Positions 353 through 14,258 of a stretch of 64,000 nt of DNA are shown piece after piece. Numbering within the stretch: the first letter of the stretch is position 1; each line of letters starts with the position of its first letter. The stretch covers positions 1,302,001 through 1,366,000 of the forward strand of contig NZ_CP116398.1 of the NCBI RefSeq assembly GCF_029643245.1, read 5' to 3'. A model generated the notes under the pieces. It had not been told where the DNA came from. It worked only from the letters and a program-made list of their open reading frames with translations, and made no database searches. Source of the stretch: Methylomonas sp. EFPC3. Lineage in GTDB: Bacteria > Pseudomonadota > Gammaproteobacteria > Methylococcales > Methylomonadaceae. The translations under genes were made by a program, and so were the position numbers.

Positions 353-2125
353 ATGCAAAGCATTGCCGAATTTTTCGGGACCAAGGATTTCATGCCACAC
401 GGATATTGCTTGGCCTGGAGTCCGGGCCTGCTCTGGCTGATGGTGACTTCCGATGCGATTATGGCTTTGGCCTACTTTACCTATCCGATCGGCATCGCCT
501 ACTTCGTTTGGAAACGGAAAGACTTGTCCTACCGCTGGCTGTACCTCGGCTTTTTTATCACCTTCATTCTGACCTGCGCCGCCACCCATCTGTTATCGGT
601 GGTGACGGTCTGGATTCCGCTTTACTGGCTGGATGCCTATGTCAAAGCCGTATCCGCCCTGGTGGGCATCGCCACCTCTTTCGCGATCTGGTGGGTCATA
701 CCGCGCGCGCTGAAATTGCCAAGCCCGGCGGAATTGCAGCGCGCCCGCGATCAGGCCGAAGCCGCCAACAAAGCCAAAAGCGTGTTTTTGGCTAACATGA
801 GCCACGAACTGCGCACACCGCTGAATGCCATTCTCGGTTTTTCCAGCCTGATGCAAAAAGATCCGCAGCTTCCGGCCAGCCAACACCACAATCTGGCCAT
901 CATCAACCGCAGCGGCGAACATTTGTTGAGCTTGATCAATAATGTACTGGAAATGGCAAAAATCGAGTCCGGCCGGCTGCAATTGGAACGTAGCCGCTTC
1001 GATCTCGGCGCCATGATCCGCGACGTCAGCGACATGATGTCGATGCGGGCGCGGGACAAGGGTTTGCAATTGTTAATCGACCAAACCTCGGAATTTCCGC
1101 GCTTCGTTTGCGGCGACGAGGCGCGTCTGCGCCAAGTGTTGATCAATCTGCTCGGTAACGCCTTGAAATTTACCCAGCAAGGCGGCGTCACACTGCGTCT
1201 GGGCACGCAACAAAACAACCACAGCCATCTAAGGATCGAAGTGGAAGATACCGGTCCCGGTATCGCCGACAGTGAGCGGGAGCACATCTTCGAGCCCTTC
1301 GTGCAACTCGGTGACCAGGGCGACAGTAAAGGTACCGGCTTGGGCTTGACCATTACCCGCCAGTTCGTGCAACTCATGGGCGGACAGCTGACGCTGGAAA
1401 GTAGCGTCGGCAAGGGTTCGTTGTTCCGTATCGATTTACCGCTGCCGGAGTTGGCGGAGCCGGAGGTCCGTGCCAGCGCAGCGGATAGCCTCGGCGAAGT
1501 GACCGGTCTGGCCCCTGGCCAGCCGCAATTCCGGATTTTGATCGTCGAGGATCAACTGGAAAATCAGCTGCTACTCGGCCGGCTGATGACCGATATCGGC
1601 ATGCAAATCCAGTTAGCCAAAGACGGCGCGCAAGGCGTGGCCCTGTTCGAATCCTGGCAACCGCACCTGATCTGGATGGACCGGCGCATGCCGCACATGG
1701 ACGGCATGCAAGCCACCCAAGCCATCCGGCAGTTGCCAGGCGGCGATCGGGTCAAGATTGTCGCGGTCACCGCCTCCGCGTTTATGGAGCAGCGCGAGGA
1801 AATACTGCAAGCCGGTATGGACGACTTCATCCGCAAACCCTACCGGGCCGAAGAAATTTACGCCTGTCTGGCCAAACACCTCGGCGTCGAATTCGTTTAC
1901 CGGACGGAAATCGCCGCTGCCCAGGACGCAAGCTTGGATCCGGCGATGATTGCCGCCCTGCCGGAACCATTGCGGAAAGACTTGAAAACGGCACTGGAAA
2001 GCCTGGAACAAGCGCGCATAGCCGAAGTCTTGGAACGCATCGGCGGCGTAGATCGGCCGCTACAAAAAACCCTGGCGCTACTGGTCGACAACTTCGACTA
2101 TCCAGCTATTCTTAAATATCTGTAA
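353..2125 (+). CDS. Ethylene-receptor-like hybrid histidine kinase
   Basis: This 590-residue membrane hybrid kinase probably senses a small ligand and phosphorylates its own receiver domain. Residues 25-115 form three membrane helices that match the plant ETR1 ethylene-binding domain: SD-x5-AYF-x-x-P at 33-45, YRW at 60-62, and C75-A-A-T-H79. C75 and H79 align with the copper-binding Cys65 and His69 of ETR1, and D34 and Y41 align with its Asp25 and Tyr32. A coiled linker leads to a HisKA domain (H151 in SHELRTP), an HATPase_c domain ([24 protein letters not shown]) and a REC domain with D443. The C-terminal 80 residues form a helical tail with no Hpt histidine motif. A GAGG ribosome site precedes the ATG. 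The REC-HD-GYP gene 23 bases downstream is its likely output partner. Ligand identity is inferred from homology only. Confidence 0.88.
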
Positions 2126-2148
2126 AGCTGCTCTGGACAACTACGCCA

Positions 2149-3147
2149 GTGAACGGAAAAATCCTCGCCGTCGACGACACCCCGGACTCCCTAAAATTGT
2201 TGACCCAACTGTTGCAGTCGGAGGGCTACGAGATCCGCTCGGCCATCAATGGCGAACTGGCTTTGCAGTCGGCGTTGCTCAATCCGCCGGAATTGATCCT
2301 GCTGGACGTGCGCATGCCGGACATGGACGGCTTCGAGGTATGCCGCCGTTTGAAAGCCTACCCGCAAACCCGCAGCGTGCCGGTCATCTTCGTTACGGCG
2401 TTATCGGAGATCAACGAAAAAGTCGACGGCTTTAAATTGGGCGCCGTCGATTTTATTACCAAACCCTACCAGCGGGAGGAGTTGTTGGTCCGGGTCCGCA
2501 CCCATCTGGAAATGGCGCGCTTGCGAAACGGCCTGGAATCTCTGGTCAACGAACGCACCGCGGAATTGAAAGCCAATATGCTGTCGTTCGTCACCGCGAT
2601 CGCATCGACGGTGGAAATGCGCGATCCATACACGGCCGGCCATCAACGCCGCACGGCTCATCTGGCGTCGGCAATCGCCCAACAAATGCGACTCGGCCCG
2701 GATTTAATCGAAGGCCTGAGCCTGGCCGGGGTGGTTCACGACATCGGCAAAATCAAAGTGCCGGCCGAAATTTTGTGCAAACCGGGAAAGCTGGACGAAC
2801 TGGAATACGGCCTGATCAAACTCCACCCGCAAACCGGTTACGAAATCCTGAAATCGATCGATTTTCCCTGGCCGATCGCCCAGACCGTATTGCAACACCA
2901 CGAACGGCTGGACGGATCGGGCTATCCGCAAGGCAAAGTCGGGGCGGACATTCTGCCGGAAGCGAAGATTCTGGCTATCGCCGACGTGGTCGAAGCGATG
3001 ATTTCCCACCGCCCTTACCGGCCCGGCCTGGGCATAGCCGCCGCTTTACGGGAGATTGCCGAGCACCGCAACACGCTCTACGACGCCGCTGCGGTCGATG
3101 CCTGTCTGGCTCTGTTCCAAGAAAAGCATTACCAACTGCCGGCTTGA
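2149..3147 (+). CDS. REC-HD-GYP response regulator, c-di-GMP phosphodiesterase
   Basis: The protein has 332 residues. The receiver domain (1-120) carries the phosphoacceptor D53 in LLDVRMP and a switch lysine in TKPY. A short coiled linker joins it to an HD-GYP domain with H197-D198 in HDIGK, HH in the QHHER segment, and G258-Y259-P260 in GSGYP. HD-GYP proteins hydrolyse c-di-GMP to pGpG or GMP, and this architecture is that of RpfG. The start is GTG at 2149. The gene lies 23 bases after the ETR-like kinase, so the two are probably cotranscribed and form a cognate kinase/output pair. The catalytic residues are intact, so activity is expected. Confidence 0.92.
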   Translation: MNGKILAVDDTPDSLKLLTQLLQSEGYEIRSAINGELALQSALLNPPELILLDVRMPDMDGFEVCRRLKAYPQTRSVPVIFVTALSEINEKVDGFKLGAVDFITKPYQREELLVRVRTHLEMARLRNGLESLVNERTAELKANMLSFVTAIASTVEMRDPYTAGHQRRTAHLASAIAQQMRLGPDLIEGLSLAGVVHDIGKIKVPAEILCKPGKLDELEYGLIKLHPQTGYEILKSIDFPWPIAQTVLQHHERLDGSGYPQGKVGADILPEAKILAIADVVEAMISHRPYRPGLGIAAALREIAEHRNTLYDAAAVDACLALFQEKHYQLPA

Positions 3148-3186: not shown

Positions 3187-4152
3187 ATGATGAACATCCC
3201 GAGTTTCTATCTGGAACCCGCCAATTATGCCGCTGACTTTCCCGACCTGCATTACCTCAGAACCGAAGTGTTCGTCGTCGAGCAAGGTATTGCGCCGGAA
3301 ATCGAATTCGACGATTTGGACCGGGATTGCCGGCATCTGATTGCCCGCGACGCCGCGCGGCGTCCCATCGGTTGCGGCCGCCTGTCGCCGACCGGCAGAA
3401 TCGGCCGAATGGCGGTACTGCCGGCATGGCGCCGGCAAAAGGTTGGCGAATCGCTATTGCGCGGCTTGATCGAACTGGCCGGCAATTTGGGGCTGAGCGA
3501 AGTCACCGCCCACGCCCAAATCGCAGCGCTGGGGTTTTACCGGCGCTACGGCTTCCAAACCGTCGGCGCCGAGTTCCTCGAAGCCGGGATTCCGCATACC
3601 GCAATCCGTCTGACCATTGCCGCGCCGGCGCCGATGTCCCGCCAGAGTGAGGACGCGCCTGAATCAAGCGTACCCGCCATACGCTTGCAAACGCCGGAAG
3701 CGGCGGCGGAAGCGGCCTTGGCTTTGGTCCAGCAAGCCCGCCGCCTGCTCTGCATCTACAGCCGCAACCTGGATTCGCGGCTCTACAGCCAAAAACCGCT
3801 GGTCGAAGCCTTGAAACAATTCGCGTTGCGTAACCAGCGCGGCGCCGAAGTCCGCATCATCGTTCAGGAACCGGAAGCGATTCGCGGCCAACAACTCCCT
3901 TTAATCGATTTGGCGCAACGTTTGCCGTCTTATATTGCGATCAGGGCAGCGGTCGAAGCCGAGGATTTGAATTTTAGGCCGGCATTCATCGCCAACGACA
4001 ACGGCGGTTATTTGTTTCAATTGCAGAGCGACCGCTACGACGGACACTGGAGCCCGAATTTACCGGCGCAAAACCGGCAATTGAGCGAGGAATTCGAACG
4101 GGTATGGCAAAGGGCGCGGATTTGCAGCGAGTTCCGCGCCTTGGCACTTTAG
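3187..4152 (+). CDS. GNAT acetyltransferase with C-terminal DUF7931-like domain
   Basis: The protein has 321 residues. Residues 1-145 are a GNAT fold: an N-terminal segment LRTEVFVVEQGI typical of the ElaA-like subgroup, the acetyl-CoA loop region around RMAVLPAWRRQKVGESLL, and a final GFYRRYGF motif. The substrate is unknown. Residues 165-321 form a second domain with ARRLLCIYSRNLDSRLY and a DGHWSPN segment, reminiscent of the phospholipase-D-like DUF7931 family found fused to such GNATs; I see no HKD motif. It follows the HD-GYP gene by 39 bases on the same strand. The fusion is clear, but the function of the second domain is not. Confidence 0.75.
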   Translation: MMNIPSFYLEPANYAADFPDLHYLRTEVFVVEQGIAPEIEFDDLDRDCRHLIARDAARRPIGCGRLSPTGRIGRMAVLPAWRRQKVGESLLRGLIELAGNLGLSEVTAHAQIAALGFYRRYGFQTVGAEFLEAGIPHTAIRLTIAAPAPMSRQSEDAPESSVPAIRLQTPEAAAEAALALVQQARRLLCIYSRNLDSRLYSQKPLVEALKQFALRNQRGAEVRIIVQEPEAIRGQQLPLIDLAQRLPSYIAIRAAVEAEDLNFRPAFIANDNGGYLFQLQSDRYDGHWSPNLPAQNRQLSEEFERVWQRARICSEFRALAL

Positions 4153-6484: not shown

Positions 6485-7175
6485 ATTGCCTTTCTCCAAT
6501 TACAGTTGAACGAAACCTACGGGAAGGCGGGTAACGGCATTCCCGGACATCGACACTGCAAGCAAATTCGCGGCCAATTCTCGGTAAGCCGGTCAGCGGG
6601 ATTGCCGCTTTCAGGATATTTTTAAAAACAAGGATTTAGCCATCATCCTTAGCGTAAACCCGGCATTGGCAGCCCAATAATGGCCCGCGCCGATCGTGTT
6701 TTGCAGGTTCGGACACGACAATTTGTCGGCTTTGCATTGTGCACCGGCAAGGCGCACCCGGTTAAACCCCAACGCTCTGTAGCCGGAATTGCTCGGGTCG
6801 GCTGTGCACGTCGGGCAAATCGAACGTAGCGGATAGGTCAGGAAACGTTAAACCTAGAAAAAGCAGTTGAGCCGAAATAGAGCCCGTTCGTGCTGAGATT
6901 CGAAGGATGGGCGGGATTTTTGATTCACCCAACGGACCAGCGTGTTGTGAGCCACTCATGCTTCGATCTTGCTCAGCATATATGCCCTAGAAGGCACGAA
7001 AGGCACACAACACACGTCAACGACTCGTTCCAGATGAAACAAAGGCAGGCAGCGGCGATAGCCGCGGTTGGTGTTAGATGTGGTATAGGCCACCGTTCGA
7101 TAGAACAATTTGAATAACCGGCTAAAATTCAGGGTTTCCGAAACCGTAGGAATAGTCTGACGGGTGCTTCGAATA
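6485..7175. other. Long intergenic region upstream of giant kinase
   Basis: About 690 bases without a supported gene; short frames on both strands lack ribosome sites and similarity. It includes an A/T-rich patch near 6616-6640 and a 13-base palindrome GGTTTCCGAAACC at 7133-7145, 31 bases before the kinase start, which is a possible operator. It may hold decayed sequence. Confidence 0.4.
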
Positions 7176-10100
7176 ATGAATGATTCCATCCCAAGCCTTG
7201 ATGATTTGGATTTCCGCTTACTGTTCGAATCGTCGCCCGACCTTTACCTGGTGTTAAATCCACAATTGGAAATCGTCGCCGCCAGCGATGCCTATACCCG
7301 CGCCACCTTGACTCGCCGGGAAGACGTATTGGGGAAAACGATGTTTCAAATTTTTCCCGACAATCCCGACGACCCGACGGCGGAAGGCCAGCGCAACTTG
7401 CGCGCGTCCTTGCAGCGGGTGTTGTTGTCCGGAAAACCCGACACCATGCCGGTACAGAAATACGACATCCCTAGACCCGACGGCAAGGGGTTTGAGCAGC
7501 GGTACTGGAGCCCGATCAATCTCCCCATTCTCGGCAAGGACAGCAATATTGCCTATGTGCTGCATCGCGCGGAAGATTTAACCGAGTTTATCCGCGTCAA
7601 ACAACTGGGCGTTGAGCAAAGCCAACTCAACGACACACTGCGCGCCCAGGCCGTAAAAATGGAAGTTGAGCTGTTCGCCCGCACCAAGGAAGTTGCATCC
7701 GCCAGCGCGGAGTTAAAGTCCGCCAACGAGGAACTGTCCCGCTTGTACGCCAAAACCTTGGAGTTGGACGAACTCAAAACGCAGTTTTTTGCCAACGTCA
7801 GCCATGAATTTCGCACGCCGCTGACGCTGATGCTAGGGCCTCTGGAAGAATTGCTGGCCCAATTTGCTCCAACGAGTTCAAGCCCTGACGCTGCCTTGCA
7901 TGAACAACTTGATCTGGTGCATCGCAATGGCCTGCGCCTACTCAAATTGGTGAATGCGTTGCTCGATTTTTCGCGTATCGAAGCCGGTCGCATGGATGCC
8001 TCCTATGAAGCGACCGACTTGGCGACCTATACCGCCGAGCTGGCGAGCGTATTCGGCTCCGCCACTGCAAAAGCGGGATTGAAGCTGATCGTGTCGTGCC
8101 CGGCAATGGCCGAACCTGTGTATGTCGATCGGCAAATGTGGGAAAAAATCGTCATTAATCTGCTGAGCAACGCCTTCAAGTATACCTTTGCCGGCGAAAT
8201 TGAAGTTTCGCTACGTCAATGTGGACAAAGGGTTGAGCTGGCCGTGCGCGACACGGGTGTCGGCATTGCCGCTGACCAGCTTAACCATGTGTTCGAACGC
8301 TTCCATCGGGTGCCGAACGTGCGCTCGCGCAATCACGAGGGAACCGGTATCGGCCTGGCTCTGGTGCGCGAGTTGGTCCGCTTGCACGGCGGCGACATCT
8401 CGGTCACCAGCACGCAGGGTTTCGGCAGCACCTTTACCGTTGTCATCCCGACCGGCACAGCACACTTGCCGGCTGACCATATTCACCCTGCCAAAGTGCC
8501 CTTCTCTGCCTGCACTGGCGCGGAATTTATGGCCGATGAAGCGTGGCGTTGGGAAGTGGGAGCGGAACATGAAAATGCCCTCGGTCCGCACATAGATTCG
8601 GTTGAATCGATAGGGTCTACTGCGGGCGTGAGCGCACACATTGTCATTGCCGATGATAACGCCGACATGCGCAATTATGTTGCCCGGCTGTTGCGGGTAC
8701 AAGGCTACGACGTAACAGCGGTGCGCGACGGCTTAGCGGCGCTGGCAGCAGTACGCCAGCGCCGACCGGATCTGGTGCTGACCGACATTATGATGCCGGG
8801 CCTGGACGGCATCGGTTTGCTGAGCGCCCTGCGGGAAGATCAAGAAACCAGCACGATTCCGGTCATTTTGCTCTCGGCTCGGGCCGGAGAAGAAGAACGC
8901 ATCGAAGGCCTGAAACACCGAGCCGACGACTACCTGACCAAGCCCTTCAGCGCCCGGGAACTACTGGCTCGTGTTGGGGCGTACATTGAAACAGCACGGC
9001 TACGCAAAGAGGCTGAAATCCAGTTACGTATCCAGGAAAACGAACGCGAATTTCGCGCCTTTTTCGATCTGGCCGCCGTGGGCATCGCGCAAGTTAGTCC
9101 CGAAGGACGGTGGATGAGAGTCAACCAAAAACTGTGCGACATCGTCGGCTATTCTCGGGAAGAACTAGTAACGAAGACATTTCAAGACATCACTCACCCG
9201 GATGATCTCCATACCGATCTCGGCTATATGCAGAGGATGCTGATCGGAGAGATCGATACCTACTCCTTGGAGAAGCGTTATTTGCGTAAGGATGGCGCCG
9301 TCGTCTGGATCAATCTGACCGTCGCCCTGGTTCGTGGCGATACCGGACAGCCGAGGTACTTCATCTCTGTAGTAGAAGACATCACCGGGCGTAAACAACT
9401 TGAGATTGAGCGGCAGAAATTCTTCCTGCTGGCTGAAAGCAGCAGCGAATTCATTGGCATGTGCGACCTCGATATGAATCCCCTCTATGTTAATCCCGAG
9501 GGTCGGCGCATGGTCGGTCTACCGGATATGGCCGCCGCCTGCCGGATCAAGGTACAGGACTATTTCTTTCCGGAAGATCGGCGTTTCATCGCTGAGGAGT
9601 TCTTCCCGCGCGTGCAACAGGAGGGTCACGGCGACGTGGAGACCCGCTTACGGCACTTTCAGACCGGCGAACCGATTTGGATGAACTACTACCTGTTCAG
9701 TGTCTACGACGCCGCCGGCATGCCCATCGGCTGGGCAACTGTCAGCCGCAATATAACCGAACGCAGACAAGCAGAGGCGGCGCTGCGCGAGAGCGAGTCG
9801 CGGCTGCGGTCTGTTACGGATAACATATCCATCGGCATTGTCACACTTGATCGCAATAGGCAATACAGGTTTGTTAACCCTGCCTATGTCCGTATTCTTG
9901 GCCTTGCTCAGTCAGCCGACGAGCTGATTGGCAGATCGCCGTCCGAGGTACTGGCATCCAGTTATGCGACGCAGATTTCGCCACGCCTCGACCGAGCCTT
10001 CGCCGGTGAAAAGGTGGTATACGAATTGATTCGGCCACTTGCCTCTGAGGCCGCGCCAAGACAATACACCGTCATCTACGAGCCGATACGTGATGGCGAA

Positions 10101-13100
10101 GAAATTGATGGCATCATTGTCATCATCTATGACATTACCCAGCTGAAGCAGACTGAAAATGCCTTGCGCGAGAGCGAGCGCGAATTTCGAGTTCTAACCG
10201 AGGCCATGCCGCAAATTGTCTGGGCGACACGCCCTGACGGCTGGAATGTCTATCATAACCAGCGCTGGGTCGAATATACCGGTCTGACACTTGAAGAAAG
10301 TTATGGTCATAGCTGGATAGAACAAGTTCACCCTGATGATAGGCAACGTGCCTGGGAAGCATGGCAACGCGCGACCCAGCATCATGACAGCTACTCCGTG
10401 GAATTTCGCTTGCTACGGGCAGACGGCGTATACCGGTGGTGGTTGGCCCGGGGCATGCCACTGTTAAACGCACAAGGGCAAATCGAAAAATGGTACGGCA
10501 CCTGTACCGACATTCAAGAATTAAAAGAAGCGGAAACCGTTATCCGTGAAAATGAAACCAGGCTGCATTTTGCTTTGGAGATGTCGAATACCGGCGCCTG
10601 GGAAGTGGATTTGGAAACGCACGCCGCGTATCGCTCCATCGAACACGCCCGTATTTTCGGCTATTCCGACACAGCGTCGGCATGGTCGGTCGACAAATTC
10701 CTGGAGCATGTGCTGGCGGCAGACCGGGCCAGGGTCGCGGCAGTGCTGCAAGAGGCGTTTGCCAGCGGCGGCGAAGGCAAATTCGAATGCCGGATTCGGC
10801 GTACCGATGGCGAAATCCGCTGGATCATGGTCGCCGGCCGCTATCGCATCCACCGAACGGACGGCAAAAGCCAGGTCGCCGTGGGCGTCATTCAAGACAT
10901 TACCGACAGTAAACTCTTTCAGGAAGAACTCAAGCAACACCGCGACCAGTTGGAAATATTGGTTGCCCGCCGCACAGAAGAACTGGAAAAAGCCAAGGCC
11001 TTGGCGGACACCGCCAACCATGCCAAGAGCGCCTTCCTGGCCAATATGAGCCATGAAATCCGCACGCCGATGAATGCCGTGCTGGGTTTTTGCTATCTAT
11101 TGGAACAGCGTCATCTGGACGGCGAATCGCTGGCCTTGGTGCGCAAAGTCCACAATGCCGGGCATACGCTATTGTCCCTGATCAACGATATCCTCGACTT
11201 TTCCAAGATCGAGGCCGGCCGGCTGGATATTGAGCGCGCGCCGTTCAAACTGACCGAAATGCTGGACAACCTTGCCGCTATCATGGCGACGGCCGCCCAC
11301 GATAAAGACCTGGAATTGATCATCACCCCACCCGCCGAAATCGACGCCTTGGTTGGCGATGCCTTGCGCCTCCAGCAAATATTAATCAACTTGCTCAGCA
11401 ACGCGATCAAATTTACCGAACGCGGCGAGGTCGAGTTGCGCGTTAGCGTGGAATCTGCGGACAAACAACAATGTCAGCTGCGTTTTGGGGTGCGCGATAC
11501 CGGCATCGGCATTTCCAGCTCACAGCAGTCGCTGATTTTCTCGGCTTTCGGCCAAGCCGATAGCAGCATCAGCCGCCGATTCGGCGGCACCGGCTTGGGC
11601 TTGAGCATCAGCATGCAACTGGTGGAACTGATGGGCGGCAGCCTGCAAGTGACCAGCGAAGTCGGCCAGGGTAGCGAATTCTGGTTCGTGTTGCCGTTGC
11701 AGCGCGACCAGCGCGTGGAACGCCGGCCTAGCGAACTGGCTCGGCTCGAACTGCTGATCGCAGATGACTGCGCCAGCGTGCGCGAGGCGCTGGCCGTTGT
11801 GGCTAACTCTTTGGGTTGGCCGGCCGATACCGCCGCTTCCGGCGAATCCGCCCTGATGCAAGCACTGACCAGGATGGATAGCCAACGTTTTTACGATGCC
11901 ATCGTATTAGATTGGAAAATGCCGGGGCTGGACGGATTGAGTGCCGCTAAAGCCATACGCCAAGCGCTTCAGGAAAAACGCCAGGACTTGGACCCGCCGA
12001 TACTACTGATGGTCGCCGCTCATTTGCGCGAAGAATTATTGGCCCAACCGGGTATCGAGACAGTGGCCAAGGTACTCAGCAAGCCGGTCACCGCCTCGAC
12101 GCTCTACTCTGCCGTCGCCGACTCGTTAAACCAACACGGTCTGGGGCTATTTCGGCCCGATCCGCCGCCGATCGCCGCCGCCGGCAATCGCCGCATTCCC
12201 GGCGTGCGCGTACTGGTGGTCGACGATAGCGATATCAACCGGGAAGTGGCAAAAGGCATCCTGGAAGCAGATGGCGCAATCGTCGATACGGCCTGCGACG
12301 GCCAGGACGCGCTGGAATGGCTGCGAGTCCACCCCGATACGGTGGATATCATATTGATGGACTTACAAATGCCGCGCCTGGACGGCTATGCCGCCACCCG
12401 CATTATCCGCGAGGATGAACGCTGGCGGGAGTTACCCATCGTCGCACTGACCGCCGGCGCCTTCCAGGAATTGCGCGATGCGGCGCAGGCATCCGGCATG
12501 AGCGATTTTGTAGCCAAACCGTTCAACGTGGCGCAAATGATGGAAACCATTCAACGCTGGACCGGATGCTCGGCAGGAAAGGCCATCTCGGGCGTTAGCG
12601 GCGCAAGCGTGGCCGTCGGCTCGGCAAGTGTATCGCCGCCGCGGCCGGCGACCGGCGCTGGAGAACCCGAATTGCCGGCTATCGATCTGGCGGCCGCGCG
12701 CGGCCAATGGGGCCAGCTCGACGTCTATCGCACTTATCTGGACAAATTCGTCGCCGCGTACGCGGTGTGCGGAACCTCTATCGCCGCCGCATGCCATGAC
12801 GGCGACCTGAAAACTGCCGGGGATCTGGCACATAAACTGTACGGCGTGGCCGGAACTTTGCGGCTGTCCCGAGTCGCCGAGCTGTCCCGCAAACTGGAAA
12901 CACGCTTGAATGGGGGCGAAGCGGCATTTAAACTGGCGGCCGAATTGCAAGCCGCGATAGATCAGGTATGCGCGGCAGTCCACGCTTGGCCTGAAACCGA
13001 AACCCCCGCGGTCGAGCCGGAGCCGGCTACCGGCCCGCTTGGGGACGGCTTGCTTGATTTGTTCGCGGGCATGCTGAAAGCGCTCGACCGTAACGATCCC

Positions 13101-13256
13101 GATGATTCCGAAATCTGGCTGGACCGGCTGCGGCAGCACCCGGACCCCATCCAACTGACCGAGTTGGACGCGCTGCTGGCCGACTTCGATTTCCGCGGGG
13201 CGGAGGCCGCCGTGCGCAGTCTGGTGCAGCACCTGAATTTATCGATACCGGAGTAA
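7176..13256 (+). CDS. Giant double-core hybrid histidine kinase with six PAS domains
   Basis: The protein has 2026 residues and no membrane segment. Order: PAS (about 10-145), coiled coil, first HisKA (H210 in SHEFRTP) and HATPase, REC with D537, five PAS domains (about 615-1250; several show ITGRKQ, DITQLK or ITDSK exits), second HisKA (H1293 in SHEIRTP) and HATPase, REC with D1579 (VLDWKMP), REC with D1729 (LMDLQMP), Hpt with H1886 in AHKLYG, and a C-terminal helical tail similar to that of the kinase at 353. Both kinase cores keep N, G1 and G2 boxes. ATG 7176 is preferred to GTG 7164. The following REC-HD-GYP gene starts three bases after the stop codon, so the phosphorelay probably ends on that phosphodiesterase. 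Confidence 0.9.
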   Translation: MNDSIPSLDDLDFRLLFESSPDLYLVLNPQLEIVAASDAYTRATLTRREDVLGKTMFQIFPDNPDDPTAEGQRNLRASLQRVLLSGKPDTMPVQKYDIPRPDGKGFEQRYWSPINLPILGKDSNIAYVLHRAEDLTEFIRVKQLGVEQSQLNDTLRAQAVKMEVELFARTKEVASASAELKSANEELSRLYAKTLELDELKTQFFANVSHEFRTPLTLMLGPLEELLAQFAPTSSSPDAALHEQLDLVHRNGLRLLKLVNALLDFSRIEAGRMDASYEATDLATYTAELASVFGSATAKAGLKLIVSCPAMAEPVYVDRQMWEKIVINLLSNAFKYTFAGEIEVSLRQCGQRVELAVRDTGVGIAADQLNHVFERFHRVPNVRSRNHEGTGIGLALVRELVRLHGGDISVTSTQGFGSTFTVVIPTGTAHLPADHIHPAKVPFSACTGAEFMADEAWRWEVGAEHENALGPHIDSVESIGSTAGVSAHIVIADDNADMRNYVARLLRVQGYDVTAVRDGLAALAAVRQRRPDLVLTDIMMPGLDGIGLLSALREDQETSTIPVILLSARAGEEERIEGLKHRADDYLTKPFSARELLARVGAYIETARLRKEAEIQLRIQENEREFRAFFDLAAVGIAQVSPEGRWMRVNQKLCDIVGYSREELVTKTFQDITHPDDLHTDLGYMQRMLIGEIDTYSLEKRYLRKDGAVVWINLTVALVRGDTGQPRYFISVVEDITGRKQLEIERQKFFLLAESSSEFIGMCDLDMNPLYVNPEGRRMVGLPDMAAACRIKVQDYFFPEDRRFIAEEFFPRVQQEGHGDVETRLRHFQTGEPIWMNYYLFSVYDAAGMPIGWATVSRNITERRQAEAALRESESRLRSVTDNISIGIVTLDRNRQYRFVNPAYVRILGLAQSADELIGRSPSEVLASSYATQISPRLDRAFAGEKVVYELIRPLASEAAPRQYTVIYEPIRDGEEIDGIIVIIYDITQLKQTENALRESEREFRVLTEAMPQIVWATRPDGWNVYHNQRWVEYTGLTLEESYGHSWIEQVHPDDRQRAWEAWQRATQHHDSYSVEFRLLRADGVYRWWLARGMPLLNAQGQIEKWYGTCTDIQELKEAETVIRENETRLHFALEMSNTGAWEVDLETHAAYRSIEHARIFGYSDTASAWSVDKFLEHVLAADRARVAAVLQEAFASGGEGKFECRIRRTDGEIRWIMVAGRYRIHRTDGKSQVAVGVIQDITDSKLFQEELKQHRDQLEILVARRTEELEKAKALADTANHAKSAFLANMSHEIRTPMNAVLGFCYLLEQRHLDGESLALVRKVHNAGHTLLSLINDILDFSKIEAGRLDIERAPFKLTEMLDNLAAIMATAAHDKDLELIITPPAEIDALVGDALRLQQILINLLSNAIKFTERGEVELRVSVESADKQQCQLRFGVRDTGIGISSSQQSLIFSAFGQADSSISRRFGGTGLGLSISMQLVELMGGSLQVTSEVGQGSEFWFVLPLQRDQRVERRPSELARLELLIADDCASVREALAVVANSLGWPADTAASGESALMQALTRMDSQRFYDAIVLDWKMPGLDGLSAAKAIRQALQEKRQDLDPPILLMVAAHLREELLAQPGIETVAKVLSKPVTASTLYSAVADSLNQHGLGLFRPDPPPIAAAGNRRIPGVRVLVVDDSDINREVAKGILEADGAIVDTACDGQDALEWLRVHPDTVDIILMDLQMPRLDGYAATRIIREDERWRELPIVALTAGAFQELRDAAQASGMSDFVAKPFNVAQMMETIQRWTGCSAGKAISGVSGASVAVGSASVSPPRPATGAGEPELPAIDLAAARGQWGQLDVYRTYLDKFVAAYAVCGTSIAAACHDGDLKTAGDLAHKLYGVAGTLRLSRVAELSRKLETRLNGGEAAFKLAAELQAAIDQVCAAVHAWPETETPAVEPEPATGPLGDGLLDLFAGMLKALDRNDPDDSEIWLDRLRQHPDPIQLTELDALLADFDFRGAEAAVRSLVQHLNLSIPE

Positions 13257-13259
13257 GCC

Positions 13260-14258
13260 ATGCCTTACGGCCCTATCCTCATCGTCGACGATGAGCCCAC
13301 CAATTTGGCCATCCTACGCCGTACGCTGAAAGACGAGCACCGGTTAATGCTGGCTCGAAACGGTGCAGAAGCGCTCGAGCTGGCGGGCAAGCATCATCCC
13401 TGTCTGATCCTGCTCGATATCCAAATGCCGGAAATGGACGGCTATGCGGTCTGCCGCGCCCTGAAAGCCAATCCGGCGACCGAGGCCATCCCGGTGATTT
13501 TCGTCACCACGCTATCCGAATTGGAAAAAGAGGAAGCCGGCTTCGACGCAGGCTGTGTCGATTACTTGATCAAACCGGTTTACCCCCGGATCGTGCGGGC
13601 GCGGGTGCGGACCCACCTATCGCTGGTGCAGGCCAAACGCTTGGAGAGAACCTACGGCGAGGCCATCGCCATGCTCGGTAAAGCCGGCCATTACAACGAC
13701 AGCGATACCGGGCTGCATATCTGGCGCATCGCGGCTTACGCCCGGCAACTGGCCGAGGCCGTCGGCTGGCCCAAAGAGAATTGCGTGTTGCTGGAGCAAG
13801 CCGCGCCGATGCACGACACCGGCAAAATCGGCATTCCCGACTCGGTGTTACGCAAACCCGGCCAACTGGATGCCGACGAATGGGCCATCATGCGCGGCCA
13901 TTGCCGAATAGGCTACGAAATCCTGTCCAGCAGCGACGCGCCGGTATTCGTGTTGGCCGCCGAGGTCGCACTTCGCCATCACGAGAAGTGGGACGGCAGC
14001 GGTTATCCCGACGGCTTGCGCGGCGAAGCCATTCCCGAATCGGCGCGCATCGTCGCGCTGGTCGACGTGTTCGACGCCTTGACCATGAAACGCCCGTATA
14101 AAGACGCTTGGTCGGTGGAACAGGCTATGGACACCTTGCGCGAAGGCGCGGGCCGCCATTTCGACCCTACCCTGGTCGAGGCATTCGAAACCTGCCTGCC
14201 GCGCATTTTGGAAATCAAGGCCGGTTGGGACAGCCGCGAAGCGCAGCAAGGCGCCTGA
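13260..14258 (+). CDS. REC-HD-GYP response regulator, c-di-GMP phosphodiesterase
   Basis: The protein has 332 residues. The receiver has D53 in LLDIQMP and a lysine in LIKPV. The HD-GYP domain has H185-D186 in MHDTGKIGIPD, the HH of RHHEKWDG, and G248-Y249-P250 in GSGYPDG. It should degrade c-di-GMP when phosphorylated. It starts three bases after the giant kinase and so is its likely target. The domain order matches the protein encoded at 2149-3147, but the sequences differ enough that this is not a recent duplication. Confidence 0.92.
   Translation: MPYGPILIVDDEPTNLAILRRTLKDEHRLMLARNGAEALELAGKHHPCLILLDIQMPEMDGYAVCRALKANPATEAIPVIFVTTLSELEKEEAGFDAGCVDYLIKPVYPRIVRARVRTHLSLVQAKRLERTYGEAIAMLGKAGHYNDSDTGLHIWRIAAYARQLAEAVGWPKENCVLLEQAAPMHDTGKIGIPDSVLRKPGQLDADEWAIMRGHCRIGYEILSSSDAPVFVLAAEVALRHHEKWDGSGYPDGLRGEAIPESARIVALVDVFDALTMKRPYKDAWSVEQAMDTLREGAGRHFDPTLVEAFETCLPRILEIKAGWDSREAQQGA

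Follow-up and report, generated by a model that had tools for sequence, protein, structure and literature searches.

Receptors of the ETR1 type hold Cu(I) on two residues, C65 and H69 in ETR1 (PMC6586836, PMC13012798), and seven ETR1 residues are required for ethylene binding, namely, D25, Y32, I35, P36, I62, C65, and H69, of which I35 lies immediately near modelled ethylene clusters (PMC6586836). In bacteria, AzoEtr1 is a tested receptor with published ethylene binding, and ethylene lowers cyclic di-guanosine monophosphate (c-di-GMP) in Azospirillum by a route reported as unknown (PMC11819568). In Geitlerinema, a receptor gene adjoins one whose product contains a diguanylate cyclase domain (PMC6682694). 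This study concerns a two-gene locus in a 64,000-nt stretch of the genome of Methylomonas sp. EFPC3 (NZ_CP116398.1, positions 1,302,001 to 1,366,000; hereafter the window), where a hybrid histidine kinase with an ETR1-type sensor is followed by a response regulator consisting of a receiver (REC) and an HD-GYP domain. Comparison with related loci indicates that kinase core and REC-effector are a cassette with exchangeable sensors, which here carries an ETR1-type sensor. A pathway in which an ETR1-type Cu(I) sensor of ethylene or a similar gas acts via the kinase and the REC-HD-GYP protein on c-di-GMP, built on this cassette, has in our judgement slightly better than an even chance of being correct.

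In a preliminary description, an ETR1-like N-terminal domain with D34, Y41, C75, and H79 was assigned to the kinase, and a REC-HD-GYP protein was placed next to it within positions 353..3147. Both open reading frames (ORFs) are found there, the Pfam domains agree (Table 1), and the four residues are as claimed. The N-terminal domain matches Pfam ETR1_N (PF25487) at 96.5 bits (cut-off 27, E 1.1e-27), and none of 14 control genomes contains an ETR1_N match (0/14). The AlphaFold2 model built for the sensor from 31 sequences predicts three long helices (residues 24-54, 61-85, and 91-121; mean predicted local distance difference test (pLDDT) score 87.7), i.e., the three-helix N-terminal membrane domain of an ETR1-type receptor. 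Neither a chain of a solved ETR1-type membrane domain by sequence nor a fold match at E <= 0.001 was found; no high-resolution structure of the ETR1 membrane domain exists according to PMC13012798, and spin-label distances fit an ab initio ETR1 model better than the AlphaFold arrangement (PMC13012798). Because the AlphaFold packing of ETR1 is thus disputed, the helix packing of the sensor model is not relied on here. The rest of the protein is that of a hybrid histidine kinase, with His151 in HisKA, the N and G boxes in HATPase, and Asp443 in REC. The model of the whole protein is of no more than fair quality (pLDDT 71.1, predicted template modelling score 0.47) and ends in a short helical tail after the receiver; no Pfam HPt match was obtained in the kinase at E 0.001, which sets it apart from the RpfC type. 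A GAGGAGG stretch 5' of the ATG was taken by eye as the ribosome-binding site. Over 136 aa, the sensor domain does not differ from that of Methylomonas koyamae SM2 (L088), and the genome holds two PF02461 genes (particulate methane monooxygenase/ammonia monooxygenase), so the host is a methanotroph, a possibility that the preliminary description had raised.

Six of the seven ETR1 ethylene-binding residues are kept in the window sensor, and the seventh, Ile35, is replaced by Tyr44, so that the full set is incomplete. The ETR1 numbering could be applied without an ETR1 sequence because the residue spacing agrees with the published numbers: in ETR1, I35 and P36 are adjacent, D25 lies 11 before P36, I62 lies 3 before C65, and H69 lies 4 after it (PMC6586836), and D34, Y44, P45, I72, C75, and H79 are spaced in the same way. 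Tyr44 and a one-residue insertion in helix 2 had gone unmentioned in the earlier account. When 16 related hybrid kinases are aligned, D34, Y44, P45, I72, C75, and H79 are invariant and Y41 is at least 90% conserved; L099, which has Asn for D34, was left out of this alignment. The window sensor belongs to a 21-row clade (support 100/99 in a 72-row tree and 100/100 in a 31-row tree), here referred to as the Tyr clade, since Tyr occupies the I35 position in 20/20 distinct members and in 0/106 other distinct domains. The 126 distinct sensor domains compared came from fetched loci rather than from a random sample, and 69 of them have all seven canonical residues. Members of the Tyr clade, several of which are metagenome bins, also have the extra residue in helix 2, and keep the other six binding residues except for D25 (Asn in L099) and Y32 (Phe in L101). 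Two Tyr-clade kinases occur in bins labelled Gallionella (L093, L094), which may reflect horizontal transfer or mis-binning. A further position of interest is K98, which aligns with the lysine proposed to bridge to D25 in ETR1; it is present in the window sensor, and is Asn in 10 Tyr-clade members and Asp in L099. A conserved lysine is mentioned in PMC13012798. All four domains with Asn at the D25 position (L134, L071, L099, L118) are without the conserved helix-3 lysine, and of two domains with Glu there, L080 is without the lysine and L076 has it. Loss of the lysine beside Asn is what a salt bridge between D25 and the lysine would lead one to expect, yet 10 Tyr-clade domains keep Asp without the lysine.

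With the window sensor as query, matches were found in 155/311 genomes of the host's order, i.e., about half of those searched, covering 33/50 genera. A class-wide sample gave matches in 11/369 genomes, 3 of the 11 being from the host's order, and Pfam ETR1_N was above cut-off in 12/369 genomes of the class sample and 28/398 of a phylum sample. In 25 of 42 loci from the host and its relatives, which were chosen and not random, the sensor and GGDEF or GGDEF-EAL form a single fused ORF. The host itself has two ETR1_N proteins by Pfam search: the window kinase (101 bits in the genome search) and a 731-aa ETR1_N-PAS-GGDEF-EAL protein (L003:5442-7637, C1:2505 kb) with 7/7 ETR1 binding residues (row L001). 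About 3.9 kb past the gene of the latter begins a set of genes that resemble, by eye, those for a sigma factor, a FecR-like regulator, and a TonB receptor (L003:11488-15001). In another locus (L045:2577-5202), an ORF of the ethylene-binding domain (EBD) type and a PAS-GGDEF-EAL ORF overlap by 20 nt, and the start of the sensor lies in a third ORF; in its relatives L050 and L061 the parts are fused into a single ORF, and L045 is a split gene or contains frameshifts.

An HD-GYP gene lies directly 3' of a Tyr-clade kinase gene, at a distance of -4 to +23 nt, in eight genomes. Four are Methylomonas, namely, the host (L004), M. koyamae SM2 (L088), SURF-1 (L089 = L034), and G002 (L035); the others are metagenome bins (L090, L091, L092, L097), in which the listed neighbours differ. 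In L090 and L092 the two genes overlap. The partner in L097 (L097:8762-9793) has a receiver 67-73% identical to those of its six kin and an HD-GYP domain only 32-35% identical, which belongs to the E-T-G (predicted trinuclear) subgroup, an apparent output-domain swap. The L097 receiver has support of 88/90 only in the REC tree, and the unrelated receivers compared are 45-58% identical. Because receivers 64-71% identical also occur in larger ORFs of the genus, mostly of 902-1108 aa, the identity of the L097 receiver is suggestive and not proof. Strict co-inheritance of receiver and HD-GYP domain was considered and rejected, given the other HD-GYP in L097 and the similar receivers in larger ORFs.

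HD-GYP homologues with 66-71% identity are present in 13 Methylomonas genomes without a Tyr-clade sensor, and a circuit dedicated to EBD and HD-GYP was rejected on this ground. Eight such loci were read (L196-L203). Five contain an intact kinase with a similar core and another sensor (L196, L198, L201, L202, L203), in L199 the kinase is broken over two ORFs, and no such kinase occurs within the stretch read in L197 and L200. The cores of the five kinases are 61-68% identical to that of the window kinase (residues 126-515); as a yardstick, the core of an unrelated hybrid kinase of the window (7164-13256) is 37.5% identical. Their sensors are GAF-PAS (L196, which L198 resembles N-terminally by eye) or dCache-PAS-GAF (L203; L202 is similar by eye), and the N-terminus of the L201 kinase has no Pfam match. 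A tail resembling that of the window kinase follows the core in five other-sensor relatives (L195, L196, L198, L201, L203), and the HD-GYP gene comes before the kinase gene, not after it, in L199, L202, and L203. The host also has a sister cassette (C1:2538 kb), in which the gene of a CHASE8-HAMP-PAS kinase, its core 65% identical to that of the window kinase, overlaps by 4 nt with a REC-PAS-GAF-GGDEF-EAL gene; the receiver of the latter is 68% identical to that of the window HD-GYP protein.

Trees of cores and sensors disagree. In the core tree (31 rows), the window kinase groups with other-sensor kinases (15 rows, 100/98), the Tyr-clade cores of group B lie in a separate group (11 rows, 100/99), and a single core clade of the 16 Tyr-clade kinases (9 of group A, 7 of group B) was rejected (approximately unbiased (AU) test, p 2.24e-11). 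In the sensor tree, these 16 sensors form one clade, and group A alone is not a clade, although weakly so (AU p 0.03). Since the Tyr-clade cores are not one clade although their sensors are, sensor and core have recombined, and by these comparisons the pairing with HD-GYP goes with the kinase core and not with the sensor. The two-gene ethylene-to-c-di-GMP circuit of the preliminary description is therefore retained in part: the pairing recurs in eight genomes, but a dedicated circuit is too narrow a notion, as the core and HD-GYP also occur with other sensors and Tyr-clade sensors are also found on kinases that have no adjacent HD-GYP gene. Links between ethylene receptors and c-di-GMP had been hinted at in print (PMC11819568, PMC6682694), and the second ETR1_N protein of the host carries GGDEF-EAL. 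The recurring kinase-receiver pair, with the sensor side and the output side of the pathway both varying around it, is the best sequence evidence, though not proof, that the kinase talks to the HD-GYP receiver. In three group B loci, a second hybrid kinase of the same core type lies close downstream (L095:8830-11169, L105:8819-11185, L103:9848-12487), with a MASE3 sensor in L095 and a PAS sensor in L105, a layout that would fit duplication of the core followed by a change of sensor.

The HD-GYP domain of the window protein keeps 7/8 metal-ligand positions of PmGH (4mcw) by alignment. Tyr161 (2629-2631) stands at the position of PmGH E185, which places the protein in the Y/F subgroup, predicted to be binuclear (PMC4159591). 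The seven metal ligands common to both subgroups and the GYP motif are present, and the protein is a predicted c-di-GMP phosphodiesterase. Its best solved relative is V-cGAP3 (5z7c), a phosphodiesterase of 3'3'-cyclic GMP-AMP (cGAMP), with PmGH (4mcw) among the five matches.

The anatomy, the conservation of the Cu-site residues, the recurring pairing, and the different sensors on a similar core can all be read from sequence, and suggest the following pathway. The three-helix domain would hold Cu(I) on C75 and H79, where ethylene or a similar small pi-ligand gas would bind; ethylene is a likely, but not an assured, ligand. The ligand would shift the helices and thereby change the kinase/phosphatase balance of a standard core, the kinase would phosphorylate its operon partner, the putative REC-HD-GYP phosphodiesterase, and the switched enzyme would set local or global c-di-GMP. 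The ETR1-type sensor would have been grafted onto the kinase-core/REC-effector cassette in methanotrophs. Clues to the sign of the response are that ethylene negatively regulates Slr1212 (PMC7700396) and lowers c-di-GMP in Azospirillum (PMC11819568), and that in PcrK-PcrR phosphodiesterase activity is higher when phosphorylation is lower (PMC7700396); the sign may be in either direction. The likely purpose would be an ethylene alarm acting on the decision between an attached and a motile life, useful in wetland and root habitats, which would pay off because methane monooxygenase co-oxidises ethylene to toxic epoxyethane. Ethylene is toxic to methanotrophs, probably via epoxyethane formed by methane monooxygenase, and the text reporting this does not contain the word receptor (PMC11507031).

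Apart from the HD-GYP homologues in genomes without a Tyr-clade sensor, several observations weigh against this pathway. As to the input, Ile35 is required by ETR1 for ethylene binding (PMC6586836) and is Tyr in the window sensor. The output could thus be the same and the input another, the Tyr clade having lost or changed ethylene recognition so as to read Cu(I) occupancy or another Cu(I)-binding gas (acetylene, carbon monoxide, propene), which we consider possible but rather doubtful. The strict association of Tyr with the clade together with the helix-2 insertion, the retained Cu ligands, and the replacement of the K98 residue in many members all point in this direction, as does one Tyr-clade kinase whose neighbourhood includes CopB and multicopper-oxidase genes (L106:3197-5561 (= L036)). 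However, the window protein keeps the other six binding residues and K98, the published test of an ETR1-type receptor was alanine scanning and not Ile35Tyr (PMC11819568), and the copper-gene neighbour is a single case in which the contig end cuts the kinase. More broadly, the Tyr44 clade may tentatively be seen as a methanotroph-centred offshoot of ethylene receptors with an altered ligand (Cu(I) or another Cu-binding gas), shuffled between cores and plugged into a c-di-GMP cassette. If true, it would give methanotrophs a direct readout of copper or of alkene/alkyne stress on methane monooxygenase.

As to the output, 17 of the 19 named Tyr-clade loci (L088-L106) are readable downstream, L104 and L106 ending too soon; HD-GYP is directly next in only 6/17, 10/17 are without HD-GYP, and in L099 it is the second gene downstream. 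In G030 (78% complete), where the Tyr-clade kinase is cut by a contig end, no HD-GYP exceeds 41% identity among the matches listed. Moreover, phosphotransfer to a separate receiver need not be direct, because the kinase is a hybrid without an HPt match. It is conceivable, therefore, that the main targets of the kinase are other regulators (first its own REC, followed by HPt or other receivers) and that the HD-GYP neighbour is regulated elsewhere; the host has 9 HD_5 and 55 GGDEF matches over cut-off. This is nevertheless unlikely, as REC-effector genes repeatedly accompany a similar core with varying sensors and outputs, and as the kinase and HD-GYP genes overlap in two of the loci. Finally, c-di-GMP specificity is uncertain because the best solved relative is a cGAMP phosphodiesterase, but a cGAMP-specific enzyme or a protein-interaction regulator, which the Y/F subgroup with its missing metal ligand would also allow, is improbable in view of the seven intact ligand positions, the GYP motif, and the c-di-GMP signature of both the E-T-G partner in L097 and the GGDEF-EAL sister cassette of the host.

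Because an ETR1-type kinase has a predicted phosphodiesterase as operon partner, the receptor-to-c-di-GMP link proposed here can be tested with two purified proteins, and the locus offers a testable route for c-di-GMP lowering of the AzoEtr1 type, reported as unknown (PMC11819568). The natural Ile-to-Tyr change provides a ready probe of recognition in the ETR1 pocket. Since ethylene poisons methanotrophs (PMC11507031), sensing of ethylene or copper could bear on methane oxidation around plant roots.

Several neighbouring genes deserve mention. Directly 3' of the pair lies a gene for a GNAT-DUF7931 protein (3187-4152), which also adjoins the pair in M. koyamae SM2 and G002. A second kinase/REC-HD-GYP pair follows 4 kb on, on the + strand (7164-13256 and 13260-14258); its kinase has 2030 aa with PAS, HisKA/HATPase (two stretches each), three REC stretches, and HPt, and its 332-aa REC-HD-GYP protein, encoded 3 nt after the kinase, shares 38% identity with that of the first pair. 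A divergent MshEN-T2SSE ATPase gene (L004:8092-9996) lies just outside the window on its upstream side and adjoins an HDOD gene; M. koyamae SM2 and G002 have similar neighbours. An MshEN-ATPase is encoded near the kinase in the host, M. koyamae SM2, and G002; the genes listed for the ~3.5 kb upstream in L091, L092, and L097 include none, and L089 and L090 have <0.7 kb of upstream sequence. The MshEN family includes c-di-GMP-binding pilus/secretion ATPases, and the ATPase beside the kinase as a c-di-GMP target is a lead only.

Table 1. Features of the kinase and REC-HD-GYP genes in the window.
Feature	Position	Strand	Details and basis
Hybrid histidine kinase, 590 aa	353..2125	+	ETR1_N sensor - HisKA - HATPase_c - REC - small helical tail; ORF call and Pfam
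ETR1_N (PF25487) membrane domain, residues 26-122	428..718	+	Pfam, 96.5 bits
D34, aligns with ETR1 D25	452..454	+	Alignment
Y41, aligns with ETR1 Y32	473..475	+	Alignment
Y44 at ETR1 I35 position, clade-specific substitution	482..484	+	Alignment
P45, aligns with ETR1 P36	485..487	+	Alignment
I72 (566-568), C75 (575-577), H79 (587-589), align with ETR1 I62, C65, H69	566..589	+	Alignment
HisKA, phospho-acceptor His151 at 803-805	776..973	+	Pfam and residue check
HATPase_c with N and G boxes	1112..1447	+	Pfam and residue check
Receiver domain of the kinase, phospho-acceptor Asp443 at 1679-1681	1535..1864	+	Pfam and residue check
C-terminal helical tail, residues 530-589	1940..2119	+	Pfam without HPt match, structure model
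REC-HD-GYP response regulator, 332 aa, GTG start	2149..3147	+	23 nt past kinase stop; Pfam Response_reg and HD_5
Receiver of the HD-GYP protein, probable phospho-acceptor Asp53 at 2305-2307	2161..2496	+	Pfam; Asp from sequence
HD-GYP domain	2605..3090	+	Pfam, PmGH alignment

Among the papers listed from the open-licence literature, none was recognised as describing an ethylene-type receptor kinase with HD-GYP, and the locus is best placed by comparison with systems that share parts of it. In H-NOX networks, gas (haem) sensors control HD-GYP-type c-di-GMP hydrolysis. RpfC/RpfG resembles the window pair in that a hybrid kinase of the membrane is partnered with a REC-HD-GYP protein. RpfC, however, responds to a fatty-acid signal and has a C-terminal HPt domain, which is defining for the RpfC type and for which the window kinase has no match. 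RpfG also has Gly where the window HD-GYP protein has Tyr161 (PMC4159591). GCS-HD-GYP of Vibrio fluvialis likewise couples a gas sensor to HD-GYP-type c-di-GMP hydrolysis, but with a haem sensor and in a single polypeptide (PMC10882959). In PcrK/PcrR of Xanthomonas campestris, a kinase that senses a plant hormone controls a regulator with c-di-GMP phosphodiesterase activity, the ligand being cytokinin and the sensor CHASE (PMC7700396). SynEtr1/UirS (Slr1212)-Slr1213 of Synechocystis is a bacterial ethylene-receptor kinase with a response-regulator partner, whereas UirS is also a UV-A cyanobacteriochrome and UirR acts via LsiR (PMC5812497, PMC7700396). AzoEtr1/AzoRRetr1 shares with the window pair an ETR1-type three-helix sensor on a histidine kinase and a receiver gene downstream, and differs in that AzoEtr1 has PAS and AzoRRetr1 is without a recognisable output domain, while the window has REC-HD-GYP and Tyr at the I35 position (PMC11819568). 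A 525-aa ORF on an A. brasilense Sp7 plasmid record (L175) was taken as AzoEtr1 from the length given in PMC11819568; this presumed AzoEtr1 domain has 7/7 ETR1 binding residues and is 40% identical to the window sensor over 130 aa, with Ile-Pro where the window has Tyr-Pro. The locus thus joins an output like that of RpfC/RpfG to an input like that of AzoEtr1, both of known kinds.

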